A stretch of 48,851 nucleotides of DNA from a virus. Each line of letters opens with the position of its first letter. The stretch's first letter is position 1. The notes beneath the pieces are model-generated. The model saw only the letters and a list, made by a program, of their open reading frames with translations. It was not told the origin of the DNA and did not search any database. Made by a program: the position numbers and the translations under genes. Shown here one piece after another: positions 128 to 44,361 of this stretch. The stretch lies in the IMG/VR virus record IMGVR_UViG_3300020109_000035, positions 1-48,851 of that record, one strand, 5' to 3'.

Positions 128-201
128 GTAACTACGGCTGGCACCACGGCGAGGCGCCACAAGTCGACTTCCTGCACCCCGGCCGGCTCTCCCTCGTGTA
201 G
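1..201 (+). CDS. HNH endonuclease, C-terminal part (gene split by the contig ends)
   Basis: Reading frame 1 is open from the first base to the TAG at 199-201. It is the direct continuation of the gene that starts at 48536: 63 codons lie before the repeat and 66 after, giving a 129-aa protein. This part holds the tail after the HNH core, a W/Y-rich stretch (tryptophans near the end of the repeat, then GWHHGEAP). The zinc/HNH residues are in the N-terminal piece. Small HNH endonucleases are common in actinophages, where they can assist terminase cleavage or act as nicking enzymes. Which role applies here cannot be told from sequence. The stop codon overlaps the candidate operator at 196-216. 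Confidence 0.85.
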   Translation: MGHNPTHAGVLGLLVPRYTDHAAAPVWLSVLYGSGWWLLDDDGNYGWHHGEAPQVDFLHPGRLSLV

Positions 202-216
202 GGTCCACCTGTACAC
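196..216 (+). promoter_or_regulatory. Operator-like 21-bp element with -10 hexamer (site 1)
   Basis: The element begins GTGTAGGGTCCACC and ends TACAC, with outer arms GTGTA/TACAC as an inverted repeat. TAGGGT at 199-204 fits an actinobacterial TAnnnT -10 box. Related copies are at 15244, 16256 and 26108, with a partial one at 44291. It precedes an SD (221-233) and a 25-codon ORF at 242. A promoter overlapped by a repressor site is inferred. Confidence 0.6.
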
Positions 217-241
217 CCGGTCTCGTGGAGGAGCCCGCACC

Positions 242-319
242 ATGCCCGTTCGCCATGCCCTCGCCCCTTCCCTGGCGCGGGCCTCTCGGCGTGCTGCTGG
301 ACCTCCCCGGACCACCTGA
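242..319 (+). CDS. 25-aa leader ORF
   Basis: An ATG follows an excellent SD (GGAGGAG at 227-233, 8-nt spacing), and the frame encodes a basic 25-residue peptide rich in Arg, Ala and Pro before TGA at 317-319. No family is recognised. It sits between the promoter/operator at 196-216 and a perfect 13-bp hairpin that starts 4 nt after the stop codon. That order (promoter, short ORF, terminator-like hairpin, structural gene) is typical of attenuation leaders, so its translation may matter more than the peptide. It could also be a genuine micro-protein. Confidence 0.5.
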   Translation: MPVRHALAPSLARASRRAAGPPRTT

Positions 320-322
320 GCG

Positions 323-360
323 CGGTCCCGGGAGGTGCCCCCGTCGCCCTCCCGGGACCG
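323..360 (+). terminator. Perfect 13-bp hairpin after the leader ORF
   Basis: Arms 323-335 and 348-360 are exact reverse complements (arm CGGTCCCGGGAGG) around a 12-nt loop. There is no U-tract, which is common for terminators in very high-GC genomes. It may be a terminator or attenuator. A TAnnnT sequence (TACCGT, 387-392) downstream could restart transcription for the gene at 424. Confidence 0.6.
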
Positions 361-423
361 TCCTCGGCCCCGGCGACCGTCGGGGCTACCGTCCAGCACC
401 ACCCCACGAGAGGACGCGCCACC

Positions 424-954
424 ATGACCCAAGGGATCCGCCTCGGCGGCCAACTGCCCGCCGGCGACCGCAACGGCCTGGTCCGGATCACGTCGCAACT
501 GATCGACGACCCGCACGCCGCCCACGTCGCCGTCGTCGTCCTGGACTGCAAGCAGTTGACGGTGAACACCGACGACGAGACGCAGACCCCGCTGGTCCGG
601 ATCCGGGCGATCGAGCCGCTGACCACCGCCGAGGACATCGCCGCTGTCTCGGCCGCGCTCCGGCGGGCGTTCGAGCAGCGCACCGGGAAGGTCGAGCTCC
701 CCTTCGAGATGACCCAGGACGCCGAGCGGGTCACCCTCGCCGACCGCCCGGACCTGCCCGACGCCGGCAGCCTCACCGACGACGGCGACGCGATCGGCGG
801 CGACCTGCCGGAGATCCCGCCGGCCGCGGACCTGGACGCCCCGGCCGAGTGGGAGGACGGCTACCCCGAGGGCAAGCCCGACGCCGAGCCCACCGAGGAG
901 GAGCCGGGCAACGTCCGGGCGTTCCGGTCGCCGTTCCAGACCAGTGGTCAGTGA
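424..954 (+). CDS. Hypothetical protein (176 aa)
   Basis: ATG is preceded by GAGAGGA at a suitable distance. The N-terminal ~110 residues look folded, with a hydrophobic strand (AAHVAVVVLDCKQL, about residues 37-50) and an amphipathic helix (about 75-92). The C-terminal third is acidic and Pro/Glu-rich, probably disordered. No catalytic motif is recognised. It is the first long gene of the early/DNA-metabolism unit and overlaps the next gene by 11 nt. A DNA-metabolism accessory role is suggested only by position beside the RuvC-like resolvase and, around the circle, the Cas4-like nuclease. Confidence 0.75.
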   Translation: MTQGIRLGGQLPAGDRNGLVRITSQLIDDPHAAHVAVVVLDCKQLTVNTDDETQTPLVRIRAIEPLTTAEDIAAVSAALRRAFEQRTGKVELPFEMTQDAERVTLADRPDLPDAGSLTDDGDAIGGDLPEIPPAADLDAPAEWEDGYPEGKPDAEPTEEEPGNVRAFRSPFQTSGQ

Positions 955-1393
955 CCCGCCGGCCCGCCTGCTGCTCGGCCTCGCCGGACTGACCGCCGGC
1001 GGCGTGCTCGCCGCGGTGACCGGCCAGTACTGGGCCGCGTTCCTGGCGCTCGCCGCCGCGTGCGCGTGGCTGCTCACCGTCGGCATCCGGGAGATCCGGA
1101 ACCGGCGGTGGGCGGCCCGCGTCGCCCGCTGGGACCGCCCGGAGGTCTGGCGGATACTGGACGCCGTCCGCGACCGGGAAGCCCAGCGGGACCGCGACCG
1201 GGAAGCCTGGGCCCGCCTGACCGGGCAACTGGCCGCGCTCGCCGTCGGCCTCGCCGCCGGCTTCCCCGGGGTGCTGGTCGACGTCGACCGGACCGTGGCC
1301 CGCATCGTCGGCACGTTCGACGGCCGGTTCGTCGGGTTCGGCGACCGGCTGGCCGGCGAGGAGCAGCCCCCGCCGCCGGTGCGGTACCTGTGA
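944..1393 (+). CDS. Membrane-associated hypothetical protein (149 aa)
   Basis: GTG start inside the end of the previous gene. Residues about 7-50 are strongly hydrophobic and could form two membrane helices (LLLGLAGLTAGGVLAAVTG, then an Ala/Leu/Trp-rich segment). These are followed by a highly charged Arg/Asp region (about 55-95, coiled-coil-like) and a further apolar helix (about 97-115). No family is recognised. Its TGA overlaps the GTG of the resolvase gene (GTGA), so the two are translationally coupled. Confidence 0.7.
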   Translation: MVSDPPARLLLGLAGLTAGGVLAAVTGQYWAAFLALAAACAWLLTVGIREIRNRRWAARVARWDRPEVWRILDAVRDREAQRDRDREAWARLTGQLAALAVGLAAGFPGVLVDVDRTVARIVGTFDGRFVGFGDRLAGEEQPPPPVRYL

Positions 1394-1935
1394 GCACCGT
1401 CATGGGCCTGGACCTGTCCCTGGCGTCTACCGGCGTGGCCGTGGCCCGCGCCACCGGCCCGATCACCACCGAGACGCTCGAGACCCGCGGCCGGAAGGGC
1501 GACGGCTACCCCGAGCGGGAGGCCCGGATCCGGCAGGTGCTCCGGCTGGTCGCCAACGCCGTGCCCTTCGACGTCGACCTGGTCGTCCTGGAGGCCCCTT
1601 CTTACGGCAGTAACACCCCGGGCACCTGGGACCGCGGCGGCCTGTGGTGGGCGGTGCTGCTCGGGATCCGCGACTGGGGCCACCCGATTGCCCTGGTGCC
1701 ACCCAAGAGCCGCGCCCAGTTCGCCACCGGGAAGGGCAACGCCAACAAGCCCACGGTCATGGCCGCGGCGATGAACGCCTACCCGGCCACGATCCACAAC
1801 GACAACGAGGCCGACGCGGTGATCCTCGCCGCGATGGGCTGCCAGTGGCTTGGCCAGCCCCGCGCCTCCGTCCCGCCTCGCAACGTCACCGCCCTGGACG
1901 GCTGCCTGTGGCCGTCCCGCGACCTGATCCGCTGA
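1390..1935 (+). CDS. RuvC-like Holliday junction resolvase
   Basis: 181-aa RNase H-fold nuclease of the RuvC/phage resolvase type. Visible acidic residues are D8 in the N-terminal strand (MGLDLSLASTG), E68 in VVLEAPSYGS, and the C-terminal D138/E140/D142 cluster in NDNEADAV, the expected layout for the four-acid metal site. RuvC-type enzymes cut branched DNA. In phages they resolve recombination or replication intermediates before packaging. GTG at 1390 is chosen because it forms a GTGA overlap with the previous stop; an internal ATG at 1402 would still leave the first motif intact. It probably works with the ATPase and Cas4-like nuclease at 45-48 kb. Confidence 0.88.
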   Translation: MSTVMGLDLSLASTGVAVARATGPITTETLETRGRKGDGYPEREARIRQVLRLVANAVPFDVDLVVLEAPSYGSNTPGTWDRGGLWWAVLLGIRDWGHPIALVPPKSRAQFATGKGNANKPTVMAAAMNAYPATIHNDNEADAVILAAMGCQWLGQPRASVPPRNVTALDGCLWPSRDLIR

Positions 1936-1937
1936 CC

Positions 1938-1950
1938 TCTCGTGGAGGAG
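1938..1950 (+). promoter_or_regulatory. Extended SD block (TCTCGTGGAGGAG)
   Basis: Copy of a recurrent translation-start block (others near 221, 15461, 16286, 44183, 44343 and 45336). It lies 6 nt before the ATG at 1957, not the ATG of the J-domain gene at 1977. Confidence 0.65.
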
Positions 1951-1956
1951 AGACCG

Positions 1957-1980
1957 ATGGAACCGAGACCCGCACCATGA
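1957..1980 (+). CDS. 7-codon leader peptide coupled to the J-domain gene
   Basis: The best-placed start after the SD at 1944-1950 is the ATG at 1957. It encodes MEPRPAP and stops at TGA 1978-1980, which overlaps the ATG of the next gene (ATGA). The J-domain gene has no good SD of its own at its ATG, so it is probably translated by termination-reinitiation. The peptide itself need not be functional. Confidence 0.45.
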   Translation: MEPRPAP

Positions 1981-2618: not shown

Positions 2619-2881
2619 CCCCGGCCGACGCCCCCCCGCCGGGGCTGCTGGTTGCCGAGGCGATCCGCGTCCAGGTGGCCGCGACCAAGGTCCGGGAGGG
2701 CGACGGGGCGGTCGTCGACCAGTTGGCCGCCGTGCTCACGCTCCGCGGACACGTCAACGGCACCACCGAGCCGATCACCGTCACCGCGGCGCTGACCACC
2801 TCCGGCGCCGCCATGCTCGCCGGCTCCCTGCTCGAGGCCCTGGACCTGATGCGCGAGACCCCCGGTGCGGCCCCTACCTGA
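2615..2881 (+). CDS. Small hypothetical protein (88 aa)
   Basis: GTG start in a GTGA overlap with the J-domain gene. The protein reads as alternating strands and a C-terminal amphipathic helix (MLAGSLLEALDLMRE). There are no Cys, no membrane segment and no recognised family. Conserved codon bias and the tight overlap support it as real. Confidence 0.65.
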   Translation: MTPADAPPPGLLVAEAIRVQVAATKVREGDGAVVDQLAAVLTLRGHVNGTTEPITVTAALTTSGAAMLAGSLLEALDLMRETPGAAPT

Positions 2882-4318: not shown

Positions 4319-4773
4319 GGGCGCTCACCGTCCGGCAGCCGTGGGCGTGGGCGATCGTCGAGGGCGGCAAACACGTGGAGAACCGGTCACGCGGCACCAC
4401 CTACCGCGGCCCGCTGGCGATCCACGCCGCCCTGACCTGGTCCGCCCGCGGCGCCTCGGATCCGCGCGTGCTCGCCGCCTGGGATCCGGCTGGCCTCGGC
4501 CGCGGCTGGGGCCCCGACGACTTCCCGGCCGGCGCGGTGATCGGCGTCGTCGACCTGGTCGACGCCCATCCCGCGGCCGGCTGCTGCGAGCCCTGGGGCG
4601 AGGCCGAGTACTCCGAGGCCAACGGCCGCACCGTCCGCACCGTTCACCACCTGGTACTCGAGCAGCCCCGCGCCCTCCCCGAGCCCATCCCCGCCCGCGG
4701 CGCGCTGGGACTCTGGACACCGCCGCGCGACCTGATCGACCGCCTGACCGCCGAGGAGACCCGCCGTGCCTGA
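4315..4773 (+). CDS. ASCH (PUA-like) domain protein
   Basis: 152 aa opening with ALTVRQPWAWAIVEGGKHVENR, the classic start of phage ASCH proteins (QPWA...I..G.K..E.R), followed by YRGPLAIHA and GAVIGVVDL, the expected central strands. ASCH is a PUA-like beta-barrel thought to bind modified bases or RNA. GTG 4315 overlaps the previous stop (GTGA), and the end overlaps the ParB-methyltransferase gene by 8 nt. Being directly upstream of a DNA methyltransferase fits a role linked to modified DNA, but that is inference. Confidence 0.85.
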   Translation: MRALTVRQPWAWAIVEGGKHVENRSRGTTYRGPLAIHAALTWSARGASDPRVLAAWDPAGLGRGWGPDDFPAGAVIGVVDLVDAHPAAGCCEPWGEAEYSEANGRTVRTVHHLVLEQPRALPEPIPARGALGLWTPPRDLIDRLTAEETRRA

Positions 4774-6355
4774 CACCGCCCCGCTGACCGTCCAGCGCGT
4801 GCCGATCGACTCGGTCACCCCGCACCCCGAGAACCCGCGCGTCGGCAACGTCGAGAAGATCCGGGAGAGCCTGCGAGAGTTCGGCCAGTACAAGCCGATC
4901 GTCGTCCAGCAGTCCACCGGCTACGTCCTCGCCGGCAACCACACCCGGAAGGCCCTCATCGCCGAGGGCGCGACCGCGATCGACGCCGTGTTCCGCGACG
5001 TCGACGACGAGGAAGCCCGCCGGATCCTGCTCGCCGACAACCGGACCAGCGACGTCGGCGGCTACGACTCCGCCGGCCTGCTCGCCCTGCTCGGCGGCCT
5101 CCCCGACCTCGCCGGCACCGGCTACACCCCCGACGACCTCGCCGAGCTCCAGCGCGCGATCGCCCCCGCCACCGACGGCGGCAGCCCCGTCGCCCTCACC
5201 GACCCCGACGAGATCCCCGAGCCGATCGCCCCCGCCGACGCCGTCACCCGCCCCGGCGACCTCTGGCACCTCGGCCCGCACCGCCTGCTCTGCGGCGACT
5301 CCACCCGAGCCGACGACGTCCTCCGCCTGGTCGAGGGCGTCACCGAGGCGCTGGACCTGATCCACGCCGACCCGCCCTACGGCATGGGCAAGGAGGCCGA
5401 CGGGATCGCCAACGACAACCTGTACGGGCCCAAGTTGGATCGGTTCCAGGTGTCCTGGTGGGCCGCGTGGCTGCCCGTGCTCGCCGAGAACGGCTCGGCC
5501 TACGTCTGGGGGCAGGCCGCCGACCTCTGGCGCCTCTGGTGGGTCGGCGGCCTCGGCAAGGACCCCGACCTGATGGTCCGCAACGAGGTCGTCTGGGACA
5601 AGGGCAGCGGCATGGGCCAGCGCTCCGCCGACCGGCACTCCTACCCGGTCGCCTCCGAGCGCTGCCTGTTCCTGATGCGCGGCCGGCAGTTCCTCGGCAA
5701 CGTCAACACCGACGAGTACCAAGAGGAGAACGAGCCCCTACGCGCCTGGCTGGTCGCCGAACGCGACCGCATGGGCTGGACCAACCGCGACGTCAACGCC
5801 CTGACCGGAACCCAGATGGCCGGCCACTGGTTCACCCGCTCCCAGTTCCTCCCGATCACCGCCAACCACTACGAGACCCTCCAGGCCGCCGCCGACGGCC
5901 GCGCGTTCGTCAAGCCCTACGCCGAACTGCTCGGCGACCTGTTCCCCGACTTCGACGGCGACGCCAACGCCCTACGCCGCCGCCTCGCCGCCCAACTCCG
6001 CGAGGGCCGGACCTACTTCGACAACACCCACGACACCATGCGCGACGTCTGGACCTTCCCCCGCGTCCACGGCGACGACCGGCACGGCCACGCCACCCCC
6101 AAGCCCGTCGCCATGGTCGAGCGCGCCATCAAGTCCAGCACCCCACCCGGCGGCACCGTCGGCGTCCCCTTCGCCGGCACCTGCCCCGAACTGATCGCCG
6201 GCCACCACCTCGGCCGCACCGTCCTGGCGATCGAGCTCGAGCCCGCCTACTGCGACGTGATCGCCCGCCGGTACGCCGAGCACACCGGCACGACCCCGAT
6301 CCGGCAGCCCGCCGGCACCACCGACCGCGTCGCTCACCCGGAGTTGGCCCGGTGA
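4766..6355 (+). CDS. ParB-like nuclease domain / DNA amino-methyltransferase fusion
   Basis: 529 aa. Residues ~8-100 form a ParB/Srx-like domain (VTPHPENPR, then GQYKPIVVQ and AGNHTRKAL). A linker leads to a beta-class S-adenosylmethionine methyltransferase: catalytic motif IV DPPYGMG near 201 and motif I-like VPFAGTCPE near 468, with TPKPVAMVERAI just before it. DPPY enzymes methylate adenine N6 or cytosine N4. Such fusions are widespread in actinophages and presumably modify phage DNA against restriction. The start codon GTG follows GAGGAGAC. No restriction nuclease partner is seen nearby, so it is an orphan enzyme here. Confidence 0.9.
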   Translation: MPDTAPLTVQRVPIDSVTPHPENPRVGNVEKIRESLREFGQYKPIVVQQSTGYVLAGNHTRKALIAEGATAIDAVFRDVDDEEARRILLADNRTSDVGGYDSAGLLALLGGLPDLAGTGYTPDDLAELQRAIAPATDGGSPVALTDPDEIPEPIAPADAVTRPGDLWHLGPHRLLCGDSTRADDVLRLVEGVTEALDLIHADPPYGMGKEADGIANDNLYGPKLDRFQVSWWAAWLPVLAENGSAYVWGQAADLWRLWWVGGLGKDPDLMVRNEVVWDKGSGMGQRSADRHSYPVASERCLFLMRGRQFLGNVNTDEYQEENEPLRAWLVAERDRMGWTNRDVNALTGTQMAGHWFTRSQFLPITANHYETLQAAADGRAFVKPYAELLGDLFPDFDGDANALRRRLAAQLREGRTYFDNTHDTMRDVWTFPRVHGDDRHGHATPKPVAMVERAIKSSTPPGGTVGVPFAGTCPELIAGHHLGRTVLAIELEPAYCDVIARRYAEHTGTTPIRQPAGTTDRVAHPELAR

Positions 6356-7767: not shown

Positions 7768-7786
7768 CCCAGTGGAGGAGACGACG

Positions 7787-14524: not shown

Positions 14525-14535
14525 CGTCACCCCCG

Positions 14536-15193: not shown

Positions 15194-15243
15194 CCACTTT
15201 CCGGCGCGTCGTGCTGGTGTCCTGCACACAACGACCCGCCCCG

Positions 15244-15264
15244 GTGTACTGTCCACCTGTACGC
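15244..15264 (+). promoter_or_regulatory. Operator-like 21-bp element with -10 hexamer (site 2)
   Basis: Begins GTGTACTGTCCACC and ends GTACGC; TACTGT (15247-15252) is a good TAnnnT -10 box. CTGCAC lies 19 bp upstream (15222-15227), the same distance as at site 4. Predicted transcription start falls inside the element, about 32 nt before the ATG at 15292. Confidence 0.65.
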
Positions 15265-15291: not shown

Positions 15292-15441
15292 ATGGCCCAC
15301 AACGCCGCCACCGCCGCCGCCGAGCTCTCCCAGGCCCGCGCCGCCCTGGCCCGCGCCGAGCGCCGCGGCGACACCGCCGCCGCGGCGCACCTCCGCGGCA
15401 TCGTCGGCAACGCCGCCCTGATCGCCCGCCGCTACCGCTGA
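15292..15441 (+). CDS. Small Ala/Arg-rich helical protein (49 aa)
   Basis: ATG after GAGGAGACC with good spacing, directly downstream of operator site 2. The peptide is almost wholly helical and repetitive in character (ATAAAELSQARAALARAERRG, then HLRGIVGNAALIARRYR) with basic charge. No family is recognised. A promoter and SD devoted to such a small gene suggest a regulatory or counter-host role, not determinable from sequence. Confidence 0.65.
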   Translation: MAHNAATAAAELSQARAALARAERRGDTAAAAHLRGIVGNAALIARRYR

Positions 15442-15479: not shown

Positions 15480-16235
15480 ATGACCGCGATCGCCACCTGG
15501 GGCGGTGACGCCCTTCCCGACGGCGTCACGATCGGCCCCGCCGACCTGACCCGCTACACCGCCGTCCAGTTGTCCGAGCGCCTGGCCCGCCGGCTGACCG
15601 AGGAGATCCGCGGACACCTCGGCCAGGGCATCCGGAAGCTGGTCCGCGCCCGGGAGGGCGGCGCCCACCTGGCCATGGGCTACGCCACCTGGCACGAGTA
15701 CTGCGAGGCCGAGTTCGGCGACCTCCGGGATCTCGCCCTCCCGTCGTCCGAGCGCCTGCACCTGGTGGCGTCGATGAAGGCCTCCCGCTTGCCGAACCGG
15801 CCGATCGCCGAGCGGCTGGGGTGCTCGCCGGGCACGGTCGCCGGCGACGTTGCCCGCCTCCGCGCGTCCGGCTGGGAGGGCCCGGACACCGTCACGTCCT
15901 CCGACGGCTCCGAGCGCCCCGCCCGGATCGCCTCGGCGCGCGTCACCGAGGAGCCGGACTACCGCGGCCTGTCCCGCGTCTCCGAGTCCCTGGCCCGGGT
16001 GGCGGCCCAGCAGGACCGCGGCCTCACCTCCCTGGAACTGGACGCCGAGACAGGGTGGCCGATGGGCACCGCGACGGCGTCCCTGTCCAAGGTCGAGCGC
16101 CGCGGCTGGGCCGTGCGGATCGAGGAGCCGGCGCACCGCCGCCGCGCGCGCGCCCCGTACGTCGTGACCGACGCCGGCCTCACCGCCCTGGACGCGCTGC
16201 TGGTGCCGCACGACGACGCCGAGCGCGCTCCCTGA
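15480..16235 (+). CDS. DNA-binding protein with two HTH/winged-helix regions (251 aa)
   Basis: ATG follows CTCTGTGGAGGAG. A mid-protein helix-turn-helix is clear (NRPIAERLGCSPGTVAGDVARLRASGW, about residues 103-129). The C-terminal ~75 residues form a MarR-like winged helix (LTSLELDAETGWPMGTATASLSKVERRGWAVR, then VTDAGLTALDALL). The N-terminal 80 residues resemble ParB-associated or gene-regulatory helices (IRGHLGQGIRKLVRAREGGAHLAMGY). It could be a transcriptional regulator that binds the dispersed operator element, which flanks it at 15244 and 16256. That link is inferred from position. Confidence 0.7.
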   Translation: MTAIATWGGDALPDGVTIGPADLTRYTAVQLSERLARRLTEEIRGHLGQGIRKLVRAREGGAHLAMGYATWHEYCEAEFGDLRDLALPSSERLHLVASMKASRLPNRPIAERLGCSPGTVAGDVARLRASGWEGPDTVTSSDGSERPARIASARVTEEPDYRGLSRVSESLARVAAQQDRGLTSLELDAETGWPMGTATASLSKVERRGWAVRIEEPAHRRRARAPYVVTDAGLTALDALLVPHDDAERAP

Positions 16236-16255: not shown

Positions 16256-16276
16256 GTGTACTGTTCACCTGCACGC
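16256..16276 (+). promoter_or_regulatory. Operator-like 21-bp element with -10 hexamer (site 3)
   Basis: Begins GTGTACTGTTCACC and ends GCACGC; -10 TACTGT at 16259-16264. It lies 28 nt before the ATG at 16305 and just after the stop of the HTH gene. Shares 18 of 21 positions with site 2. Confidence 0.65.
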
Positions 16277-16304: not shown

Positions 16305-16493
16305 ATGCCCCGCACCGCCCGCACAACCCCTACCGGCCGCCAGTTGGCGATCGCCGTCCCGCGCGACGCCTGGACCGGCGTCGGCCTGGCCGTCACCCCC
16401 GACGAGGACGGCGACCAGACGGACCTGTTCGAGCAGATCGCCGCCGAGCACCACATCGACGACGCCGCCGTTCAGTTCCTCACCCGCCGGTGA
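16305..16493 (+). CDS. Small hypothetical protein (62 aa)
   Basis: ATG after ACTCGTGGAGGAGACC, downstream of operator site 3. Short basic N-terminus, then an acidic body (TPDEDGDQTDLFEQIAAEHHIDDAAVQFL). It ends in a GTGA overlap with the C5-methyltransferase gene, so it heads the methyltransferase transcript. No family is recognised. Confidence 0.65.
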   Translation: MPRTARTTPTGRQLAIAVPRDAWTGVGLAVTPDEDGDQTDLFEQIAAEHHIDDAAVQFLTRR

Positions 16494-18001
16494 TCGGCCT
16501 CCGGATCGGGTCCCTGTTCACCGGCTACGGCGGCCTAGACATGGCTGTCGAGGAGGTCACCGGCGGGCGCACCGTGTGGGTGTCCGAGTACGAGCCGCCC
16601 ACCAAGAAGAACCCGCGCCCCACCCAAGCCGCCGCCCGCCTGCTCGCCTACCGGCACCCCGACGTGCCCAACCTCGGCGACGTGTCCGCGATCGACTGGG
16701 CTGGCGTGCCCCGCGTCGACGTCCTCACCGGCGGGTTTCCCTGCCAGGGCCTCTCCCTCGCCGGGAAACGCCTCGGCCTGCTGGACGCCCGCTCCGGGCT
16801 GTGGGAGCGAATGGCCTACGCCGTCGACCAGCTGCGCCCGTCCCTTGTCGTGATCGAGAACGTGAGAGGTCTGCTCAGTGCCGAAGCCGGTGGCTCGCTG
16901 GAATCCTGCCCGTGGTGTGTGGGAGACCCCGACCACGTCCCTCTGCGGGCACTCGGAGCCGTTCTCGGAGACCTGGCCGACCTCGGGTACGACGCTCGCT
17001 GGATCGGCCTACGCGCTGCCGACGTGGGCGCACCTCACGGCCGCTTCCGGGTGTTCGTCGTCGCCTGGCCTGCTGCCGACGCCGACGACGTCGGACGGCG
17101 CCGGAGGGCCGGGTTCGTCGGGTCGGGACGGCGGGGACAACCTGAGGACGGCCGTAGCGTTGCTGCCGACACCGGTAGCGCGAGACCACAAGGGCCGGCA
17201 GAACGGGCCCGGCCGGGAGCGCGACGGGAAGCCGAGGACGACGGGGGACGACGGACTGCCGGACGCGCTCGAGCGGCTACTGCCGACGCCGACGGCGGTC
17301 CCGTACGGGACACAGCAGTCCCCGAGTTCAGGAGCATCGGTGCGGCCGTCACTGGAGACCCTCATCCCGTTGCTTCCGACGCCGACGGCGATCGCCTCGG
17401 CGGCGTCGGGCGGATTGTCACCGTCGGACGTGACGCTGACGGATGCGGTCGAGCGGACCGCAATGGGCACCCGGCCGAATCCGAGGCACGCCCCGCTGTT
17501 GCCGACGCCCAAAGCTGCGGCGGCCCGGACGTCGCGGAAGGCGCTCACCCAGCAGCACTGGTCGGCTCCGAGTCTGGAGCAGGCGCTGGAGATCGCCCGG
17601 GGGGAACTGCCGCGGGAGCTGTTCTCCTGGGAGGAGTTGCAGGGGTCCAGTGGGGGGAGTTCGAGACCGCCGTCAGACGATGGGAGACCATGACCCGGCC
17701 CGCTCCGGCGCCGACCGAGCAGGACTGGGAGGGGTGGCAGCGGCGTCGCGCCGCTGCACTCCGGCGTCGCCGGAGCCGTGTCCAGCCCGTCGGCCACCGC
17801 GGCTCGGTGTGGGGGCTGTGGAACCCGCCCGCTCATCGCCTGTCTCCCGAGTTCGTGGAGTGGATGATGGGCCTCCCCGAGGGGTGGGTCACTGCTGTTC
17901 CCGGCCTCAACCGGCGCGAGGCCCTGCGAATGCTCGGCAACGGCGTCGTGCCCCAGCAGGCCGCCGCCGCTGTCCGGGTGCTGCTCAGCGGTGCGGTATG
18001 A
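16490..18001 (+). CDS. C5-cytosine DNA methyltransferase with embedded second frame
   Basis: 503 aa. Motif I SLFTGYGGLD (8-17), catalytic GGFPCQG with C85, motif VI IENVRG (~122-127), motif VIII GAPHGRFRVF (~181-190), and after a long variable region the C-terminal LSPEFVEWMMGLPEGW (~451-466) and motif X GNGVVPQQA. It transfers methyl to cytosine C5, probably protecting phage DNA. The variable region (17075-17640), where target recognition normally lies, has many A/T-ending codons in this frame and fully overlaps another ORF (16878-17693) with better codon use. The frame is open throughout, so one long protein is possible. Alternatively N- and C-terminal parts may be joined by frameshifting. 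Confidence 0.82.
   Translation: MIGLRIGSLFTGYGGLDMAVEEVTGGRTVWVSEYEPPTKKNPRPTQAAARLLAYRHPDVPNLGDVSAIDWAGVPRVDVLTGGFPCQGLSLAGKRLGLLDARSGLWERMAYAVDQLRPSLVVIENVRGLLSAEAGGSLESCPWCVGDPDHVPLRALGAVLGDLADLGYDARWIGLRAADVGAPHGRFRVFVVAWPAADADDVGRRRRAGFVGSGRRGQPEDGRSVAADTGSARPQGPAERARPGARREAEDDGGRRTAGRARAATADADGGPVRDTAVPEFRSIGAAVTGDPHPVASDADGDRLGGVGRIVTVGRDADGCGRADRNGHPAESEARPAVADAQSCGGPDVAEGAHPAALVGSESGAGAGDRPGGTAAGAVLLGGVAGVQWGEFETAVRRWETMTRPAPAPTEQDWEGWQRRRAAALRRRRSRVQPVGHRGSVWGLWNPPAHRLSPEFVEWMMGLPEGWVTAVPGLNRREALRMLGNGVVPQQAAAAVRVLLSGAV
16878..17693 (+). CDS. LLPTP-repeat protein in the +1 frame inside the methyltransferase
   Basis: 271 aa from GTG 16878, preceded by GAGAGG with an 8-nt gap. It opens with a segment typical of a methyltransferase-associated family in actinobacteria and phages (WNPARGVWETPTTSLCGH, SETWPTSGTTLAGSAYALP), then carries five LLPTP units with spacers containing D/K/G residues. 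Over about 100 codons from 17070 I count roughly 15 A/T third positions here against roughly 37 in the methyltransferase frame. This suggests real coding selection on this frame. Role unknown. Family members usually sit beside C5 methyltransferases. In this phage it overlaps the enzyme's variable region completely. Confidence 0.6.
   Translation: MPKPVARWNPARGVWETPTTSLCGHSEPFSETWPTSGTTLAGSAYALPTWAHLTAASGCSSSPGLLPTPTTSDGAGGPGSSGRDGGDNLRTAVALLPTPVARDHKGRQNGPGRERDGKPRTTGDDGLPDALERLLPTPTAVPYGTQQSPSSGASVRPSLETLIPLLPTPTAIASAASGGLSPSDVTLTDAVERTAMGTRPNPRHAPLLPTPKAAAARTSRKALTQQHWSAPSLEQALEIARGELPRELFSWEELQGSSGGSSRPPSDDGRP
17070..17510 (+). repeat. Five LLPTP-encoding repeats
   Basis: Short units built on TGCTGCCGACGCCGACG-like DNA begin at 17070, 17160, 17277, 17370 and 17496 (spacing 90, 117, 93 and 126 nt). 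In the +1 frame they read LLPTP. In the methyltransferase frame the same bases read A-D-A/T-D-type units such as ADADD and SDADG. Confidence 0.8.
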
Positions 18002-19209
18002 CCGCCCCGCACTACCGGGACGGCTCGGTCACCGTCCTGCACGGCGACGCCCTGGACCTGCTCCCCGAGATCCCGACCGGCTCGGTCGACGCCGTCGTCA
18101 CCGACCCGCCCTACGGAATCGGCTTCATGGGCAAGGCCTGGGACGGCCCCGGCGGGATGCTCGGCCAGTTGGCGACCGGCCAGGAGACCCGCGCCGGCGG
18201 TGGCCTCGCCTACGGCGGCACCCACTCCCGCGGCTACGCCGAGAACGACCCGGCCGCGTTCCAGGCCTGGGCCGGCCGATGGGCCGCCGAGTGCCTGCGA
18301 GTACTCCGCCCCGGCGGCCACCTGGTGACGTTCGGGTCGTCGAGGACGTGGCACCGCCTCGCCGTCGCCGTCGAGGACGCCGGGTTTGAGATCCGGGACA
18401 GCATCGCCTGGCTGTACGGGCAGGGCTTCCCCAAGTCGCTGGACGTCGAGCGCGCCACCGGCTCGGAGGAGTGGGCCGGCTGGGGCACCGCGCTGAAGCC
18501 CGCGTTCGAGCCGATCGTCGTCGCCCGGAAGGCCCTCACCGGCACGGTCGCCGCCAACGTCACCGAGCACCGCACCGGCGCCCTGAACGTCGACGGGTGC
18601 CGGGTGCCGATCTCCGAGACCGACCGCGCGGCGATCGACGCCAAGCACGCCGGGATGGACGTCGCCGCCTACGTCCGCGCGCCCGGGGCGTCGCTGAACC
18701 TGTCGGCCAACCCGATACCGCTCCGGCAGGCCCAGGCCCACGACCTCGGCCGCTGGCCGACCAACGTCGTGCTCGCCGAGGAGGCCGCCGAGCAGTTGGA
18801 CGCCGAGACGGGCGTGCGGCGCGCTGGAGCCGCTCCGGCCCGCCGGCAGGGCATCGGCTACGGCGGCCAGCAGACGGGCACCGAGGGCGAGCGCCGGGAC
18901 TTCGAGCCCGGCGGCGCCTCCCGGTACTTCCCGACCTTCCGGTGGGAGGCCAAGGCCCCGACCTCCGAGCGCCCGCGGGACGGCGACACCGCGCACCCCA
19001 CGGTCAAGCCGCTAGACCTCATGCGGTGGATCGTCCGGCTGGTCACCCCGCCGGGCGGCCTAGTGCTGGACCCGTTCGCCGGCTCGGGGACGACGGCCGA
19101 GGCGTGCGTCGTCGAGGGCTTCCGGTGCCTCACGATTGAGCGGGAAGCCGCCTACCTGCCGCTGATCGTCGGCCGCCTGTCCAAGCCGATCCAGGGCGTG
19201 CTGCTGTGA
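17998..19209 (+). CDS. DNA amino-methyltransferase (adenine N6 / cytosine N4)
   Basis: 403 aa. Motif IV DPPYGIG at 36-42 follows a strand DALDLLPEIPTGSVDAVVT. Motif I FAGSGTT is near 360, just after HPTVKPLDLMRWIVRLVTPPGG. This order (IV before I) marks the beta class. The central ~200 residues (about 150-330) form the target-recognition region. ATG is in an ATGA overlap with the C5 enzyme, so the two are made from one message. With the ParB fusion at 4766 this gives three DNA methyltransferases, none with an obvious restriction partner, consistent with anti-restriction modification. Confidence 0.92.
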   Translation: MTAPHYRDGSVTVLHGDALDLLPEIPTGSVDAVVTDPPYGIGFMGKAWDGPGGMLGQLATGQETRAGGGLAYGGTHSRGYAENDPAAFQAWAGRWAAECLRVLRPGGHLVTFGSSRTWHRLAVAVEDAGFEIRDSIAWLYGQGFPKSLDVERATGSEEWAGWGTALKPAFEPIVVARKALTGTVAANVTEHRTGALNVDGCRVPISETDRAAIDAKHAGMDVAAYVRAPGASLNLSANPIPLRQAQAHDLGRWPTNVVLAEEAAEQLDAETGVRRAGAAPARRQGIGYGGQQTGTEGERRDFEPGGASRYFPTFRWEAKAPTSERPRDGDTAHPTVKPLDLMRWIVRLVTPPGGLVLDPFAGSGTTAEACVVEGFRCLTIEREAAYLPLIVGRLSKPIQGVLL

Positions 19210-26057: not shown

Positions 26058-26107
26058 CCCTTCGTGGGCGTGTCGTGTCGGCCGCCTGCACATCACCTCC
26101 CCGCGCG

Positions 26108-26128
26108 GTGTACGGTCCACCCGCACAC
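26108..26128 (+). promoter_or_regulatory. Operator-like 21-bp element with -10 hexamer (site 4)
   Basis: Begins GTGTACGGTCCACC and ends GCACAC, with outer arms GTGTAC/..ACAC. -10 TACGGT at 26111-26116; CTGCAC 19 bp upstream at 26086-26091. It drives the small cassette 26149-27639, which ends at the terminator 27663-27701. Confidence 0.65.
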
Positions 26129-26148: not shown

Positions 26149-26469
26149 ATGACCGCCCCACCTCTCCGCACCAACCGGCACCTGATCCGGCCCACCGCTA
26201 CCGAGTTCGCCGCCCAGGCCGTCGCCCTGGACCACGGCGGCAAGCCGGCCGAGGTGCTGGTCAAGGCCGCCCGCGACCTGGTCGTCGTCGAGGCCGTCTG
26301 GCGCGCGACCGGATCCGGGCCCGCGCACCGCCACGAGGCCGAGGCCGCCCGGACCCGCTTCGCCCAGCACGCGCTCGGCGCCGGCGTCCACGTCACCGAG
26401 CTCGGGGCGACCGTCTCCGAGACCGCGATCGCCGCCGCCCGCATTCTCGCCCGCTACCTGCCCGCCTGA
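26149..26469 (+). CDS. Hypothetical helical protein (106 aa)
   Basis: ATG after GCGAGGAGCACCGC, 20 nt after operator site 4. Almost entirely helical (TEFAAQAVALDHGGKPAEVLVKAARDLVVVEAVW, EAEAARTRFAQHAL, TAIAAARILARYL) with modest charge. No family is recognised. First gene of a three-gene cassette that looks inserted between head genes. Confidence 0.65.
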   Translation: MTAPPLRTNRHLIRPTATEFAAQAVALDHGGKPAEVLVKAARDLVVVEAVWRATGSGPAHRHEAEAARTRFAQHALGAGVHVTELGATVSETAIAAARILARYLPA

Positions 26470-34931: not shown

Positions 34932-34948
34932 CCGATCGGAGTTGACCG

Positions 34949-35806: not shown

Positions 35807-36384
35807 GAGGCCCCCGCCGGGCGGGGGAGTGGAGGGACCACCTCGAGCAGGGCGGCGCGCTCCGCTTCGCTCTGGACGGGGAGCCGTACGAGATCCCGGC
35901 CCTGCCGGCGCGGGCGTGGCTGCTGGCCCACCTGGACGAGGATCCGCTGGCGATCTTCCCCGGCCTGCTGGCCGACGAGGACGACGTTGACGACCTGCTG
36001 GACGCCGTCGACGACGAGGACGACCCGCTGACCGCCCAGCGGTGCGTCGACCTGTCCCTGGCCCTGCTCGGGGAGGCCTCCGGCGGCTGGCGCTGGTGGG
36101 AAGCCGACCGGTTGGTGACGGTGGCGATCGCCAACTGGCCGATGCTGGACGGCCCGGCCGCGCGCCGCGGCGTCGACCTGCTGGCGCTGCCCTTCGACCG
36201 GTTCTGCTCCGCGGTCTATTCGTGGCGGGTCGAGCACGCTCCGGAGAAGGACCGGGACGAGTTCGACCGGTGGCTGACCATGGCCCCGGCCGGCGCGATC
36301 GACGTCGACGACGTCGACGACCGGCTGGCCGAGGAGGAGGCGGCGAGCTTCCTGGCGGTGGCTGGCGCGCTCGGCGCGGGGTGA
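35803..36384 (+). CDS. Tail assembly chaperone, second protein
   Basis: 193 aa starting at a GTG that overlaps the upstream stop. It is acidic (DEDDVDDLLDAVDDEDD) and helical, with Trp-rich helices (GGWRWWEADRLVTVAIANW) and a conserved-looking end (SAVYSWRVEHAPEKDRDEFDRWL) typical of the downstream chaperone product. In many siphophages this part is reached by -1 frameshifting. Here a stop at 35794-35796 in this frame and no clear slippery heptamer make reinitiation at GTGA more likely. Confidence 0.65.
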   Translation: MRGPRRAGEWRDHLEQGGALRFALDGEPYEIPALPARAWLLAHLDEDPLAIFPGLLADEDDVDDLLDAVDDEDDPLTAQRCVDLSLALLGEASGGWRWWEADRLVTVAIANWPMLDGPAARRGVDLLALPFDRFCSAVYSWRVEHAPEKDRDEFDRWLTMAPAGAIDVDDVDDRLAEEEAASFLAVAGALGAG

Positions 36385-36461: not shown

Positions 36462-39203
36462 GTGGCGTCGTCGCTCGGCAAGGCGTGGGTCGAGGTCGAG
36501 GCCAACGCCGACAAGGTCGGCCCGGAGATCGAGGCCCGGTTCACCGCGGCCCTGTCGACGATCGTCGCCGCCGCCGAGGACACCTTCGAGGACGTCGGCG
36601 ACGAGTCCGCCGACGCGGCCCGGCTGATCGCCGAGGCGTTCGAGGAGAACGGCACCGAGGCCGCCCGCTCCCTGTCCCGCGTCGGCGACGCCATGGCCGA
36701 GACCGGGGACCGGATCACCTCCGGCGCCCAGCAGGCCGCGGCCGGCATGACCGACGCCCTGCGGGACGGCGCCAACCAGACCGACCAGGCCCTCGCCCCG
36801 ATGGTCGACGCCGCCGGGAAGGCCGGCGAGAAGGCCGGCGACAAGGCCGGGGAGGGCTTCGGCACCAAGGCCAAGGTGGCGATGGCCGCCGCCGGTGTCG
36901 CCGCCGGCGCGGCGCTCGGCGTCGCTCTGGCCGGCGCGATGGACGTCGAGCGCGCCAACGACAAGCTCGCCGCCCAGTTGGGGCTGACCGGGCCCCGCTC
37001 CGAGGAGATCGGCCGGGTCGCCGGCAGCCTGTACGCCAACGCCTACGGCGAGAGCCTCGAGGACGTCAACGGCGCGGTGGGCGCCGTCGTGTCGTCGATC
37101 GCTGGGATGCGGAACGCCTCCGCGGGTGACATCGAGGCGCTGACCGCGCGGGCCCTGGACTTCGCCGGCGCATTCGACCAGGACGTCACCGCCTCGGCGA
37201 ACACGGTCGGCGTGCTGATCCGCAACGGGCTGGCCCGGGATGGGGAGCAGGGCTTCGACCTGCTGACCCGCGCGTTCCAGAAGGTGCCCGCGGCGATGCG
37301 GGAGGAACTGCCCGCGATCCTGGACGAGTACGGGACCAACTTCCGCGCGCTCGGGTTCACCGGTGAGCAGGCGTTCGGCATCCTCACCGGCGCCGCCGAG
37401 GGTGGCGCGATCGTCCTGGACAAGGTCGGCGACTCCCTCAAGGAGTTGACGATCAACGGGATCGACCTCGGGAAGAACGGCGAGCTCTACGCCTCCCTGG
37501 GGCTGAACGCCGAGAAGATGGCGACCGCGATCGCCTCCGGCGGGCCGGCCGCCCAGGACGCCACCCAGAAGATCGCCAAGGCCCTGGCCGACATAGACGA
37601 CCCCGCCGAGCGGGCCACCGCGGCGATCCAGTTCTTCGGCACCCCGCTGGAGGATCTCTCGGTCGACCAGGTGCCGGCGTTCCTGGCGTCGATCGCCGGC
37701 GTCGGTGAGGGCATGACCGACGCGGCCGGCGCCGTCGACGGCCTCGGCACCACGCTGAACGACAACGCCGCGACCAACCTGGAATCCTTCAAACGGCAGG
37801 CCCAGCAGACCTTCGTCGACCTGATCGGCGGGCGGGCGCTGCCCTTCGTCTCCGACCTCGCCGGCACCCTGGCAACCCAGTTCGGGCCCGCCGTCCAGAC
37901 CGTCGGCGACTTCCTCACCGGGACGCTGATCCCCGCCCTGACCTCCGCGGCCGGGTGGATCGGCGACAACCAGACCGCGATCCTGATCGTCGCCGGCGTG
38001 ATCGCCGCCGTGTTCCTCCCGCACCTGGTGGCCCTCGGCATCCAGTACACGATCACCCAGGCCCAGGCCGTCGCCGCCTGGACCGTCCAGAAGGCCCAGG
38101 CGATCGCCGGCGCCGCGACGCACTCCCTGGCGGTGCTCGGCATGATCGGCCGGTGGGTGCTGCTCGGCGCCTCCGCCGTCGTCCAGGCCGCGATCGCCGT
38201 CGGCGCGTGGGTCGGGATGGGCGTCTCCGCCGTCGTCCAGGCCGCGATCGTCTCCGGGGCGTGGCTCGGCGCCCAGGCCCGCATGGCGGCGAGCATGGCC
38301 GTGACGGTGGCCGGCGTCGTCGGCGGGTGGGTGCTCATGGGCGCCCAGGCCATGCTCGGCGCCGCCCGCGTCGCCGCCGCCTGGCTTATCGCCATGGGCC
38401 CGATCGCCCTGGTCGTCGCCGCCGTCGTCGGGATCGTCGTCCTGATCGTCCAGAACTGGGAGACGATCAAGAACGCCACCGCGGCGGCGTTCCAGTTCGT
38501 CGTCGACAAGGTCCGCGGGGCCGTCGACTTCCTGGTCGGCCTGTTCCTGAACTTCACCCTGGTTGGCCTGATCATCCAGCACTGGGACACGATCAAGCGC
38601 GTGTTCTCCGACGGCGTCACCGGCGCGGTCAACTTCGTGCGCGACCTCCCGGGCCGCGTCGTCTCCGCGATCGGCAACCTGGGCAGCCTGCTGGCCGGCG
38701 CCGGCGGCGACCTGATCCGCGGGTTCATCAACGGGATCTCCAACGCCGCCGGCTTCGTCGGCGACGTCGGCCGGAACGTCGTCAACTCCATCGTCCGGTT
38801 CATCAACTCCAACGTGATCGACCGGATCAACAACCTGCTCGAGTTCAAGGTCGGCCCGCTCACGATCGACCCGCCCGACCTGCCGCGGATCCCCGCCCTG
38901 GCCGAGGGCGCGATCATCCGGCGGCCGACGCTGGCCCTGGTCGGCGAGGACGGGCCCGAGGTCGTCCTCCCCCTCTCCGCCCGCCGAGCCGGCCGGCGCG
39001 ACGCCCTCATGGACGCCGCCGGCCTCACCTCCGGCGGCGACGTCGCCGGCGCCGGGATCAACGTCACCTACGCCCCGGCGCTCACCGTGCCCCGCACCGC
39101 GTCGGCCGCCGAGGTGGCCGCCCTGGTCGGCCGCGACTTCGCCCGCTCGGTGCGCCTCGGCCTGCTGGACGGCTCTCTCGGCGACCTGGAGGCCGCGTCG
39201 TGA
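36462..39203 (+). CDS. Tape measure protein
   Basis: 913 aa, the second-longest gene. Helical, Ala-rich N-terminus (VEVEANADKVGPEIEARFTAALST), a basic/Lys-Gly stretch (GKAGEKAGDKAGEGFG), then a central domain with typical tape-measure wording (DVERANDKLAAQLGLTG; AAIQFFGTPLEDLSV), a hydrophobic middle with several membrane-like helices (NQTAILIVAGVIAAVFLPHLV; IALVVAAVVGIVVLIVQNW) and a beta/loop C-terminus (LVGEDGPEVVLPLS). It fixes tail length and may form a channel in the host membrane. GTG 36462 is chosen over 36456 because the SD ends at 36456. Confidence 0.9.
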   Translation: MASSLGKAWVEVEANADKVGPEIEARFTAALSTIVAAAEDTFEDVGDESADAARLIAEAFEENGTEAARSLSRVGDAMAETGDRITSGAQQAAAGMTDALRDGANQTDQALAPMVDAAGKAGEKAGDKAGEGFGTKAKVAMAAAGVAAGAALGVALAGAMDVERANDKLAAQLGLTGPRSEEIGRVAGSLYANAYGESLEDVNGAVGAVVSSIAGMRNASAGDIEALTARALDFAGAFDQDVTASANTVGVLIRNGLARDGEQGFDLLTRAFQKVPAAMREELPAILDEYGTNFRALGFTGEQAFGILTGAAEGGAIVLDKVGDSLKELTINGIDLGKNGELYASLGLNAEKMATAIASGGPAAQDATQKIAKALADIDDPAERATAAIQFFGTPLEDLSVDQVPAFLASIAGVGEGMTDAAGAVDGLGTTLNDNAATNLESFKRQAQQTFVDLIGGRALPFVSDLAGTLATQFGPAVQTVGDFLTGTLIPALTSAAGWIGDNQTAILIVAGVIAAVFLPHLVALGIQYTITQAQAVAAWTVQKAQAIAGAATHSLAVLGMIGRWVLLGASAVVQAAIAVGAWVGMGVSAVVQAAIVSGAWLGAQARMAASMAVTVAGVVGGWVLMGAQAMLGAARVAAAWLIAMGPIALVVAAVVGIVVLIVQNWETIKNATAAAFQFVVDKVRGAVDFLVGLFLNFTLVGLIIQHWDTIKRVFSDGVTGAVNFVRDLPGRVVSAIGNLGSLLAGAGGDLIRGFINGISNAAGFVGDVGRNVVNSIVRFINSNVIDRINNLLEFKVGPLTIDPPDLPRIPALAEGAIIRRPTLALVGEDGPEVVLPLSARRAGRRDALMDAAGLTSGGDVAGAGINVTYAPALTVPRTASAAEVAALVGRDFARSVRLGLLDGSLGDLEAAS

Positions 39204-40105: not shown

Positions 40106-40109
40106 CCTC

Positions 40110-42407: not shown

Positions 42408-42410
42408 CCG

Positions 42411-42434
42411 GGGTGAGACGGTAGGGACTCACCC
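42411..42434 (+). promoter_or_regulatory. Small hairpin before the 74-aa gene
   Basis: GGGTGAG (42411-42417) pairs with CTCACCC (42428-42434) around a 10-nt loop, just after the tail-tip stop and 6 nt before the SD GGAGGAG (42441-42447). It might be a weak terminator or protect the downstream leader. Confidence 0.45.
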
Positions 42435-42453
42435 ACTCCCGGAGGAGAGCCCG

Positions 42454-42678
42454 ATGACCGAAAGCACCGACCCGACCGCCGTCCCCGACGCCCCCGACCC
42501 CGGCGAGATCGCCGCGGCCCCCGGGTACGACCGGGTGACCGTCACCGACGAGACCGGCCCGGAGGTCCAGCCCGGCGACCCGTCCTACGTCGAGCCGGCG
42601 GCCGACGCGATCCGCCCGACGGCGGTCGTCGAGCCGGTCACCGACGGCGCCGGCGCGACCTACACCCCCGAGGGCTGA
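42454..42678 (+). CDS. Small acidic hypothetical protein (74 aa)
   Basis: ATG after GGAGGAGAGCCCG. Pro/Asp/Glu/Thr-rich throughout, without hydrophobic core, so probably disordered (PDAPDPGEIAAAPGYDRVTV). Lies between tail tip and endolysin. No family is recognised. The lysin GTG is 4 nt after its stop. Confidence 0.6.
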   Translation: MTESTDPTAVPDAPDPGEIAAAPGYDRVTVTDETGPEVQPGDPSYVEPAADAIRPTAVVEPVTDGAGATYTPEG

Positions 42679-42682
42679 TCTG

Positions 42683-43624
42683 GTGGGCGTTCTCTGCGGC
42701 ACCTACTACGGGGCCACGAGGTGCTCGAGCGGCCCGACCCCGGGCGCGCGCGGCGCGATGGCCTGGTTCACCGGCGCCTACCGGGAGGAGGGCGGCAAGA
42801 ACCTGGGGATCTACAACTGCCGCGCCGTCCGCGGCGGGTCGTCGACGAGCATCCACGGCGTCGGCCGGGCCGACGACTTCGGCGTTCCCCGGACCGGCCA
42901 GGAGTGGTCGTGGCACCTCGCCGAACTGCTCCGCCTGCACTCCGCCGAGCTCGGCATCCAGTACATCATCCACCGCCGGCGGCAGTGGTCGACGTCCCGC
43001 TGCGGGGCCGGCTGGACCTACTACGGCGGGATCGCCGACCACTTCGACCACCTGCACGTCGAGCTCACCCCGGAGGCCGCGGCGCGCTCCGAGGCCGAGA
43101 CGATCGCCCTCTGGAACCGCGTCCTCGGCGACCCTTCGCCGATCAAGGGCGACGGGCACGTGATCGCCCCGCCGGTCGTCACCACCCCCGAGGTCGGCGC
43201 CTGGCGGTTCGTGCCCATGGGCGGGATCTCCGAGGTCGGCACCAAGGGCGAGCAGGTGCGCCGCGACCAGGCCGACCTGATCGACACCGGGTTCCCGGTC
43301 GGCCGCACCGGCGCCGACGGCTACTGGGGCAACGACGCCGCCGCCGGCGCCCGCGCGTTCCAGGCCGCCGCCGGGCTGGTCGTCGACGGCAAGTTCGGGC
43401 CGGCGTCCCGCTCGGCGATCCACCGGGTGCCGTCCTGGCGCAACCAGGGCGCCCGGGAGTTCCAGCAGCGGCTCAAGGACCGCGGCTGGTCGATCACCGT
43501 CGACGGAAAGTGGGGCCCCAAGTCCGCGGCCACCCTGACCGCGTTCCAGCGGGAGAAGGGCCTCACCGCCGACGGCAAGCCGGGCCCGGCGTCCTGGACC
43601 GCCCTGTGGGTGCGGCCCCGGTGA
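42683..43624 (+). CDS. Endolysin: M15-type peptidase with two peptidoglycan-binding domains
   Basis: 313 aa. The catalytic part (about 1-135) has H58-x6-D65 (STSIHGVGRADDFG) and H123-x-H125 (HFDHLHVEL), the zinc ligands and catalytic residues of LAS/M15 D-Ala-D-Ala peptidases. A linker leads to two PG_binding_1-like repeats (about 187-250 and 254-309), each with GYWGNDAA/GKWGPKSAA and AFQ..AGL.VDG/AFQREKGLTADG signatures. It would cleave stem-peptide bonds of the host wall at lysis. The two downstream genes are the likely membrane partners. Confidence 0.88.
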   Translation: MGVLCGTYYGATRCSSGPTPGARGAMAWFTGAYREEGGKNLGIYNCRAVRGGSSTSIHGVGRADDFGVPRTGQEWSWHLAELLRLHSAELGIQYIIHRRRQWSTSRCGAGWTYYGGIADHFDHLHVELTPEAAARSEAETIALWNRVLGDPSPIKGDGHVIAPPVVTTPEVGAWRFVPMGGISEVGTKGEQVRRDQADLIDTGFPVGRTGADGYWGNDAAAGARAFQAAAGLVVDGKFGPASRSAIHRVPSWRNQGAREFQQRLKDRGWSITVDGKWGPKSAATLTAFQREKGLTADGKPGPASWTALWVRPR

Positions 43625-43761
43625 GGGGCGACCGGTACGACGACGGCCTCCAGCAGCCCCCCGAGGCGGCCGAGGCGGTCGCCCTGGCCGTCGGGGCGCT
43701 GCTCGGGGTCGCCGTCGCCGCCGCGGTTGGCTGGCTGGCGCTGAGGCGGTGGGCCCGGTGA
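43621..43761 (+). CDS. Small single-span membrane protein, holin candidate (46 aa)
   Basis: GTGA overlap with the endolysin. Acidic N-terminus then one membrane helix (AVALAVGALLGVAVAAAVGWLAL, about 19-41) ending with basic residues (RRWAR). Position makes it a class III-like holin or a holin regulator. Could instead be an antiholin to the next gene. Confidence 0.6.
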   Translation: MRGDRYDDGLQQPPEAAEAVALAVGALLGVAVAAAVGWLALRRWAR

Positions 43762-44123
43762 CCGACACCTCCCGCCCCGAGCCCGTCGTCGACGAGGGCA
43801 AGATCGCCGGGGCGATCGCCGGCGCGATCGTCGCCGTCGTCGCCGTCGTGCTGCTGGTGATCCGCGGCCAGGCCTCGGACCTGTCCGCGTTGCAGGTGGC
43901 CCTGCAGGGAGCCCTCTCCGCCGTCATGGCCGCCGCCGCGGTGATCGTCCCCGTCTGGCGCGCGTACCGCGCCCGCCGGAAAGTCACCCCGCTGGCCGAC
44001 CCTCGGGACGACGACGGCACCCCGCTGGTCGCCGACCTCGGAGACGGGGCGACGGGCGCCCCGTGGGTCGTCCAGCCCCAACGGCCCGGCGAACCGGACC
44101 ACGCGGCACCGGACGAGGGCTGA
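43758..44123 (+). CDS. Holin candidate with two membrane segments (121 aa)
   Basis: GTG 43758 gives a GTGA overlap and is preferred over GTG 43749. Helix 1 (GAIAGAIVAVVAVVLLVI, about 18-35) and helix 2 (ALQGALSAVMAAAAVIVPVW, about 48-67) are followed by a basic then acidic cytoplasmic tail, the layout of class II holins and common in actinophage lysis cassettes. The terminator follows 17 nt downstream. Confidence 0.72.
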   Translation: MTDTSRPEPVVDEGKIAGAIAGAIVAVVAVVLLVIRGQASDLSALQVALQGALSAVMAAAAVIVPVWRAYRARRKVTPLADPRDDDGTPLVADLGDGATGAPWVVQPQRPGEPDHAAPDEG

Positions 44124-44140
44124 TCGGTCCACCTACGAGC

Positions 44141-44179
44141 GAGGGCCCCGTTCCCGGCGACGCCCGGGGCGGGGCCCTC
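44141..44179 (+). terminator. 10-bp hairpin ending the late operon
   Basis: GAGGGCCCCG (44141-44150) pairs with CGGGGCCCTC (44170-44179); the 19-nt loop may itself fold (CCCGG/CCGGG). A partial U-run (TGTTCTC) follows. Ends the lysis cassette. Confidence 0.75.
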
Positions 44180-44361
44180 TGTTCTCGTGGAGGAGAACGC
44201 CGAGCCCGAGAGCCGCGGCACCGCCGAGGGTACCGGCCGGCCGCCCGGCTGGGGATAACCCGGGAGCGTGACCCGCCGACGCCCGCCGCCCCGTCGTGTC
44301 GACCTGTACACGCGGGCTATGCTGGTCCCGTACCGACCCCGTCCCCGTGGAGGAGACCCCG
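44180..44361 (+). promoter_or_regulatory. Promoter region of the HTH gene, with partial operator element and orphan SD block
   Basis: TCTCGTGGAGGAG at 44183-44195 is an SD block with no gene directly after it. At 44291-44311 the middle and right half of the 21-bp element recur (GACCTGTACAC) but the left arm GTGTA is missing. A -10 box TATGCT lies at 44318-44323. CCCCGTGGAGGAG (44343-44355) then provides the SD for ATG 44362. The stretch 44196-44290 holds nothing I recognise. Confidence 0.55.

Follow-up and report, generated by a model that had tools for sequence, protein, structure and literature searches.

Phage phiC31, which grows on a high-GC host, carries dispersed inverted-repeat operators for its phage repressor. 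Here we describe a 21-bp, partly palindromic element dispersed over IMG/VR virus record IMGVR_UViG_3300020109_000035 (48,851 nucleotides, analysed whole and called the window below); by description it resembles the phiC31 operators. Published repeats of other actinophages are also relevant. In the cluster EC Microbacterium phages (Quhwah and relatives), an 18-bp intergenic repeat with the consensus TAGaCTATaGGTgTaAgC is described as asymmetric and as lying, always in the same orientation, 21-30 bp upstream of start codons; its role is left open in the cited text (PMC7302621). The stoperators of L5-type cluster A mycobacteriophages are characterised in the cited text as 13-bp monomer sites that are asymmetric and also halt elongation (PMC9283540). 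Cluster K mycobacteriophages carry start-associated sequences (SAS, GGGATAGGAGCCC) at the ribosome-binding position and, according to the same passages, extended start-associated sequences (ESAS) with inverted repeats (PMC3203893, PMC12699233).

An original prediction, made from the letters of the window, placed four full copies of the element and a degenerate fifth one; the full copies were found at those coordinates, all on the + strand, two of them with an upstream partner. HTH stands for helix-turn-helix.

196..216, + strand: full element, predicted operator with embedded -10 box TAGGGT, heading a 25-codon open reading frame (ORF) at 242
15244..15264, + strand: full element, -10 box TACTGT, heading the unit 15292-15441 then 15480-16235
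16256..16276, + strand: full element, -10 box TACTGT, preceding gene 16305
26108..26128, + strand: full element, -10 box TACGGT, preceding gene 26149
44291..44311, + strand: degenerate fifth site with intact right arm, before HTH gene 44362
15209..15229, + strand: second upstream palindrome, 35 bp before 15244 (score 12.1)
26073..26093, + strand: weak upstream palindrome, 35 bp before 26108 (score -2.0)

The consensus GTGTANNGTYCACCYGYACRC has four exact matches in the window and one match with three mismatches (47335), where 0.13 matches with at most three mismatches are expected from 100 dinucleotide shuffles of the window. All four full copies contain TAnnnT, as predicted. They also lie close upstream of starts, over 20-28 nt instead of the 21-28 nt first given: from the end of the element to an ATG preceded by a Shine-Dalgarno (SD) sequence there are 25 nt (196), 27 nt (15244), 28 nt (16256) and 20 nt (26108). 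The outer inverted repeat GTGTA/TACAC is exact at 196, the right arm being TACGC, CACGC or CACAC in the other three copies, and the start codon at 242 opens the 25-codon ORF and not gene 424. The fifth site keeps its right arm and its place upstream of HTH gene 44362 but is a weak copy. It has no in-register TAnnnT, with a separate TATGCT just downstream, and scores 17.3 with an asymmetric matrix versus 31.5-36.7 for the full copies; its symmetric-matrix score is 13.6, and column-permuted matrices give no window match of at least 13. The record itself has a 127-bp end repeat, as expected of a circular or permuted genome.

Judged from the cited texts, the closest published motif is the unexplained 18-bp EC repeat. 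The window element is likewise dispersed, in one orientation (all + strand, 20-28 nt) before small genes, in the same compartments (terminase-portal gap, MuF-capsid region, non-structural genes), with TAnnnT at its start and TGTAnGC at its end in the same register. The two differ in sequence, copy 15244 equalling the EC consensus at 10 of 18 bases in register (by eye), and in symmetry, since the EC repeat is described as asymmetric whereas the window-type arms mirror each other over 27 sites. Placement is intergenic in both, but copy 196 overlaps the stop codon of an HNH endonuclease gene. In bases 1-49000 of Quhwah (MH271321) we found 11 motifs, where the paper counts 12 (PMC7302621). TTAGAC stands upstream of nine of these 11; in the rows where the distance was measured, it is separated from TAGACT by 17-18 bp, and the two look like a -35/-10 pair, of which the cited text of PMC7302621 makes no mention. 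Most Quhwah copies have a CTAAC-N4-TTAGACA block upstream (e.g., at 45587), about 17-18 bp before TAGACT, and resemble a promoter with a palindromic upstream site. Quhwah has a sigma factor gene, whereas none was detected in the window, and its first 49 kb hold no homologue above threshold of the protein encoded at 15480.

Like L5-type stoperators as described, the element has many dispersed sites and, as proposed below, one phage repressor with two DNA-binding domains; unlike those 13-bp asymmetric sites, it is a 21-bp palindrome fixed on promoter cores. It shares with SAS and ESAS the dispersed, start-associated placement before small non-structural genes, but its window copies stop 20-28 nt short of the start codons, which have an SD apart from the element, whereas the cited texts put SAS at the ribosome-binding position. 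Literature searches returned nothing on the letters of the element or on phiC31 repeats and, among the titles listed, nothing to the point on actinophage operators. What is new here is likely a variant of dispersed actinophage control elements together with its likely cognate regulator.

Conservation in related phages

When 2.9 million viral contigs were scanned for the exact pattern, three matched: a 33.6-kb record whose terminase is 100% identical to that of the window (G003), a 51.8-kb record largely colinear with the window and with a 75% identical terminase (G002), and a contig with a single match (G001). In G002, three copies are exact and two more have 2 mismatches; counterparts of the four full copies lie at 331 (of 196), 38750 (of 15244), 36304 (of 16256) and 22862 (of 26108). 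When the spacers of the two phages are aligned, the elements are islands of identity in poorly conserved spacers at these four orthologous places, each of which has kept its own variant. The upstream palindromes have counterparts too, at 38785 (of 15209) and 22898 (of 26073; score -0.1). The position of the fifth site is conserved although the site is weak: weak sites precede the gene equivalent to 44362 in G002 (4723, score 11.8) and in a more distant relative, G013 (80917, score 15.6, the better of the sites). A GC-rich hairpin around 36330-36360 of G002, which stops just short of element 36304, may be a promoter-insulating terminator.

G013 and another distant relative, G005, were found through searches with the 15480 protein (homologues 39% identical in both), which rest on short peptide patterns and may miss relatives. 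They carry elements in places similar to those of the window, with 10 (G005) and 9 (G013) strong copies of a clearer palindrome, SYGTACANTNNNNNTGTACRS, at many promoters. Matches of at least 13 to a symmetric matrix number 5 in the window, 4 in G002, 14 in G005 and 16 in G013; this matrix was trained on 22 of the counted sites, so that the four counts are not independent. The fair comparison is with column-permuted matrices (0, 0.12, 0.12 and 0.25 such matches, respectively) and with G004, a phage whose 15480 homologue lacks the C-terminal winged HTH and which has no match at this threshold. Among the 2.9 million viral contigs, sets of copies were present only in phages related to the window phage. 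Matches to looser patterns outside the known phages were single copies in DNA of 35-54% GC and were dropped as unrelated, judged by context alone, as was a record with two perfect palindromes separated by an unrelated spacer (L104).

The sequence evidence thus gives good support to a real, conserved and phage-specific regulon. The orthologous sites in poorly conserved spacers of G002 and the similar arrangement in the distant relatives support the predicted single regulon with promoter-overlapping sites at small accessory genes.

Symmetry and promoter register

Symmetry was read from 27 sites, each oriented so that its start codon lies downstream. This set extends an earlier one of 22 hand-picked sites (TAnnnT in 21) by 13234 and 27794 in G005 and by 16203, 60250, 80917 and 88463 in G013, and drops G013 86194, which no start codon follows. 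Both sets omit weaker palindromes (e.g., 36471 and 14092 in G005; 9468, 82488 and 82501 in G013; 14803 in the window). Because a following start codon was a selection rule, proximity to start codons is no evidence as regards the relatives. Binomial values for the site statistics treat related sites as independent and are hence too small.

Across the 27 sites the arms mirror each other, and positions 3, 4, 16, 18 and 19 are invariant. Position 9 is T in 24 sites, while its mirror base, A13, occurs in none. TAnnnT fills positions 4-9 in a fixed register in 23 of the 27, as in a sigma-70-type -10 box. This combination of a symmetry that would fit a dimer with one asymmetric base that fits a -10 box is our main reason for reading the element as an operator with an embedded promoter. 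The element stops 18-32 nt short of most starts and does not coincide with the SD.

Seven of the 27 sites have a second palindrome (score of at least 10) 34-36 bp upstream, the right arm of which (TGGACA, TGCACA, TGGACG and similar) falls on the -35 position, leaving a spacer of 17-19. In the window, TGCACA occupies this position in palindromes 15209 (15223-15228, spacer 18) and 26073 (26087-26092), and the CTGCAC that had been noticed upstream of 15244 and 26108 proved to be part of this right arm in a weaker second palindrome 35 bp upstream. For two other sites the distance to the second palindrome is 27 and 22 bp, and two sites without a partner carry TTGGCA or ATGACA with a spacer of 17. 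Matches to TTGACA at spacers of 15-20 are found for 3/27 sites at five or more of six bases, versus 0.5% of 2000 random window places, and for 8/27 at four or more, versus 9.8%. A promoter scan of 43900-48851 found no promoter with a TTGACA-like -35 box. Before genes 424 and 45354, the conserved CTACCGTCC (387-392) and CTACTGTCTAGG (45296-45301) resemble TAnnnT promoters without palindromic arms; the -10 box and the arms therefore seem separable.

A candidate regulator and its rivals

Two genes of the window encode candidate regulators.

15480..16235, + strand: gene for a two-HTH protein of 251 aa, the proposed regulator, with homologues in all four phages that have element sets
44362..44646, + strand: gene for a small, excisionase-like HTH protein (phrog_597, phrog_66; homologue in G013), alternative regulator and probable target

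We lean, with slightly more confidence than doubt, towards sigma-70-type promoters whose 21-bp operators are bound by a single phage protein that also regulates its own gene, most probably a repressor encoded at 15480. Each operator would bind a dimeric protein and lie over the promoter core; the -10 box would take its TA from the left arm and its final T from position 9, and the right arm would surround the transcription start (at about position 16). At some promoters the second operator, 34-36 bp upstream, would cover the -35 box. The regulon would consist of small accessory genes and the regulator's own unit, and the two-HTH protein, once enough of it is made, would block RNA polymerase and shut these promoters, its own included. 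The sequences, their symmetry, the asymmetric -10 T, the conserved sites, the co-occurrence and the element at the head of the regulator unit are observed, whereas we infer dimerisation, binding, the identity of the protein, repression and its timing; an operator placed over a -10 box and start would suit a repressor that closes early promoters, its own among them.

The 15480 product combines a central HTH with a winged HTH of MarR-like type. Its matches in Pfam, although weak, are common to all four homologues: MarR_2 is matched below E 0.5 in each (best E 5e-7), the window protein scoring 22.7 bits, below the curated cut-off of 27. Among viral contigs, multi-copy sets were seen only in phages with a two-domain protein of this type (4/4). 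In both the window and G002, the 15480 unit has an element at its head and a small gene between element and regulator gene, and a site lies upstream of the regulator gene itself in G005 (43 nt) and G013 (40 nt). Several findings weigh against this interpretation, besides the training overlap of the symmetric matrix. Only four related phages are involved, so that co-occurrence amounts to few independent events; most of the 27 sites lack a good -35 box, and 15 of them have no palindrome scoring above -5 about 35 bp upstream, or have another spacing. The predicted structure of the 15480 protein (mean predicted local distance difference test 58.7) has no Foldseek match at E 0.001, and the 44362 gene is present in G013 as well, so its product could be the binder. 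A tblastn search with 15480 gave three weak partial matches in phages and three in plasmids, with no phiC31 record among them.

The same operators and regulator could instead serve mainly for activation from the upstream site near -40, the -10 site only limiting expression. The fixed offset of 34-36 bp, near the position of a class II activator, many poor -35 boxes and the different, CTAAC-N4-TTAG-like palindrome at the same offset before most Quhwah motifs are in line with such a dual regulator; we consider it rather unlikely, as most sites have only the copy overlapping the -10 box, where a bound dimer should block polymerase, and the upstream arms themselves resemble -35 boxes. Of the two modes that the original prediction had allowed, repression is thus the more probable, judged from site position, with activation as the minor option. 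It had also left the choice between 15480 and 44362, and 15480 is favoured by its presence in element-headed units in 4/4 multi-copy phages. Another phage protein such as the 44362 product, which has an HTH, a homologue in G013 and weak sites at its own promoter, is an improbable binder: those sites are the weakest of all, and no 44362 match was found in G005, a partial record. Gene 44362 is itself probably a target of the regulon.

Whether the regulator is encoded by phage or host had been left open as well, and a phage protein is now favoured. Being a broad palindrome, the element could have been borrowed by the phage from among its host's operators; we nonetheless judge this less probable still, since the exact pattern gave five scattered single matches, in unrelated organisms, among 84,980 prokaryote genomes in a scan confined to that pattern. 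Viewed with their flanks (and with ORFs for the one in Streptomyces atratus), none of the five formed a set. Phage N15 has partition sites in promoters, and dispersed palindromes overlapping promoters, along with the weak ParB_N match of gene 4766, might be taken for centromere-like sites. It is very hard to credit this here: no ParA-type match was detected in the window, G002 or G005 (G013 has one), and a fixed promoter register would be unexpected for such sites.

Target genes and implications

First ORFs after 21 of the sites encode 25-274 aa, and several are common to related phages. Those of the window are as follows.

242..319, + strand: 25-codon ORF after element 196, also here in G002
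15292..15441, + strand: small ORF of 49 aa between element 15244 and gene 15480, no family match
16305..16493, + strand: small ORF of 62 aa after element 16256, no family match
26149..26469, + strand: small ORF of 106 aa after element 26108, no family match

Family searches gave no match for 15292, 16305 or 26149. The expectation of accessory and not late structural targets holds even for copy 26108, which lies in the structural block, between the MuF-type gene and the one for the major capsid protein, yet heads a small accessory gene. In records that may be incomplete, domain searches of the window, G002, G005 and G013 detected no integrase of the tyrosine or serine type; a ParA-type domain and sigma-70 region 2 were likewise not detected in the first three, G013 having one of each.

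Other features were observed in the window. The leader 211-423 after copy 196 has an unusually strong fold (z -4.8) with a strong GGTCCCGGGAGG/CCTCCCGGGACC hairpin and, with its 25-codon ORF, is a possible attenuator. Four 22-bp repeats (GATCACCGGGCACCGGTGTCCC-like) at 45098-45176, just after a replication-initiator-like gene (44643-45050) and also in four copies in G002, are a candidate origin with iterons. Gene 4766-6355 joins its weak ParB_N match to a DNA methylase domain, and a second and a third methylase-like gene lie at 16490-18001 and 17998-19209.

A broader and more speculative reading, which we put forward as tentative, is a promoter code that would give a single dimeric phage protein both core boxes, through palindromes 35 bp apart on -35 and -10. 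Under this reading the controlled places (terminase-portal gap, MuF-capsid gap, after HNH, before the HTH gene) would be kept across a wide actinophage group, cluster EC among them, and it is the motif and the regulator that would be exchanged. The proposed regulon would explain how many small genes between structural genes are controlled in actinophages without a detectable integrase. It offers a testable model for the published repeats of unexplained role in cluster EC, and ties an unnamed family of two-HTH phage proteins to a defined, predicted DNA target.

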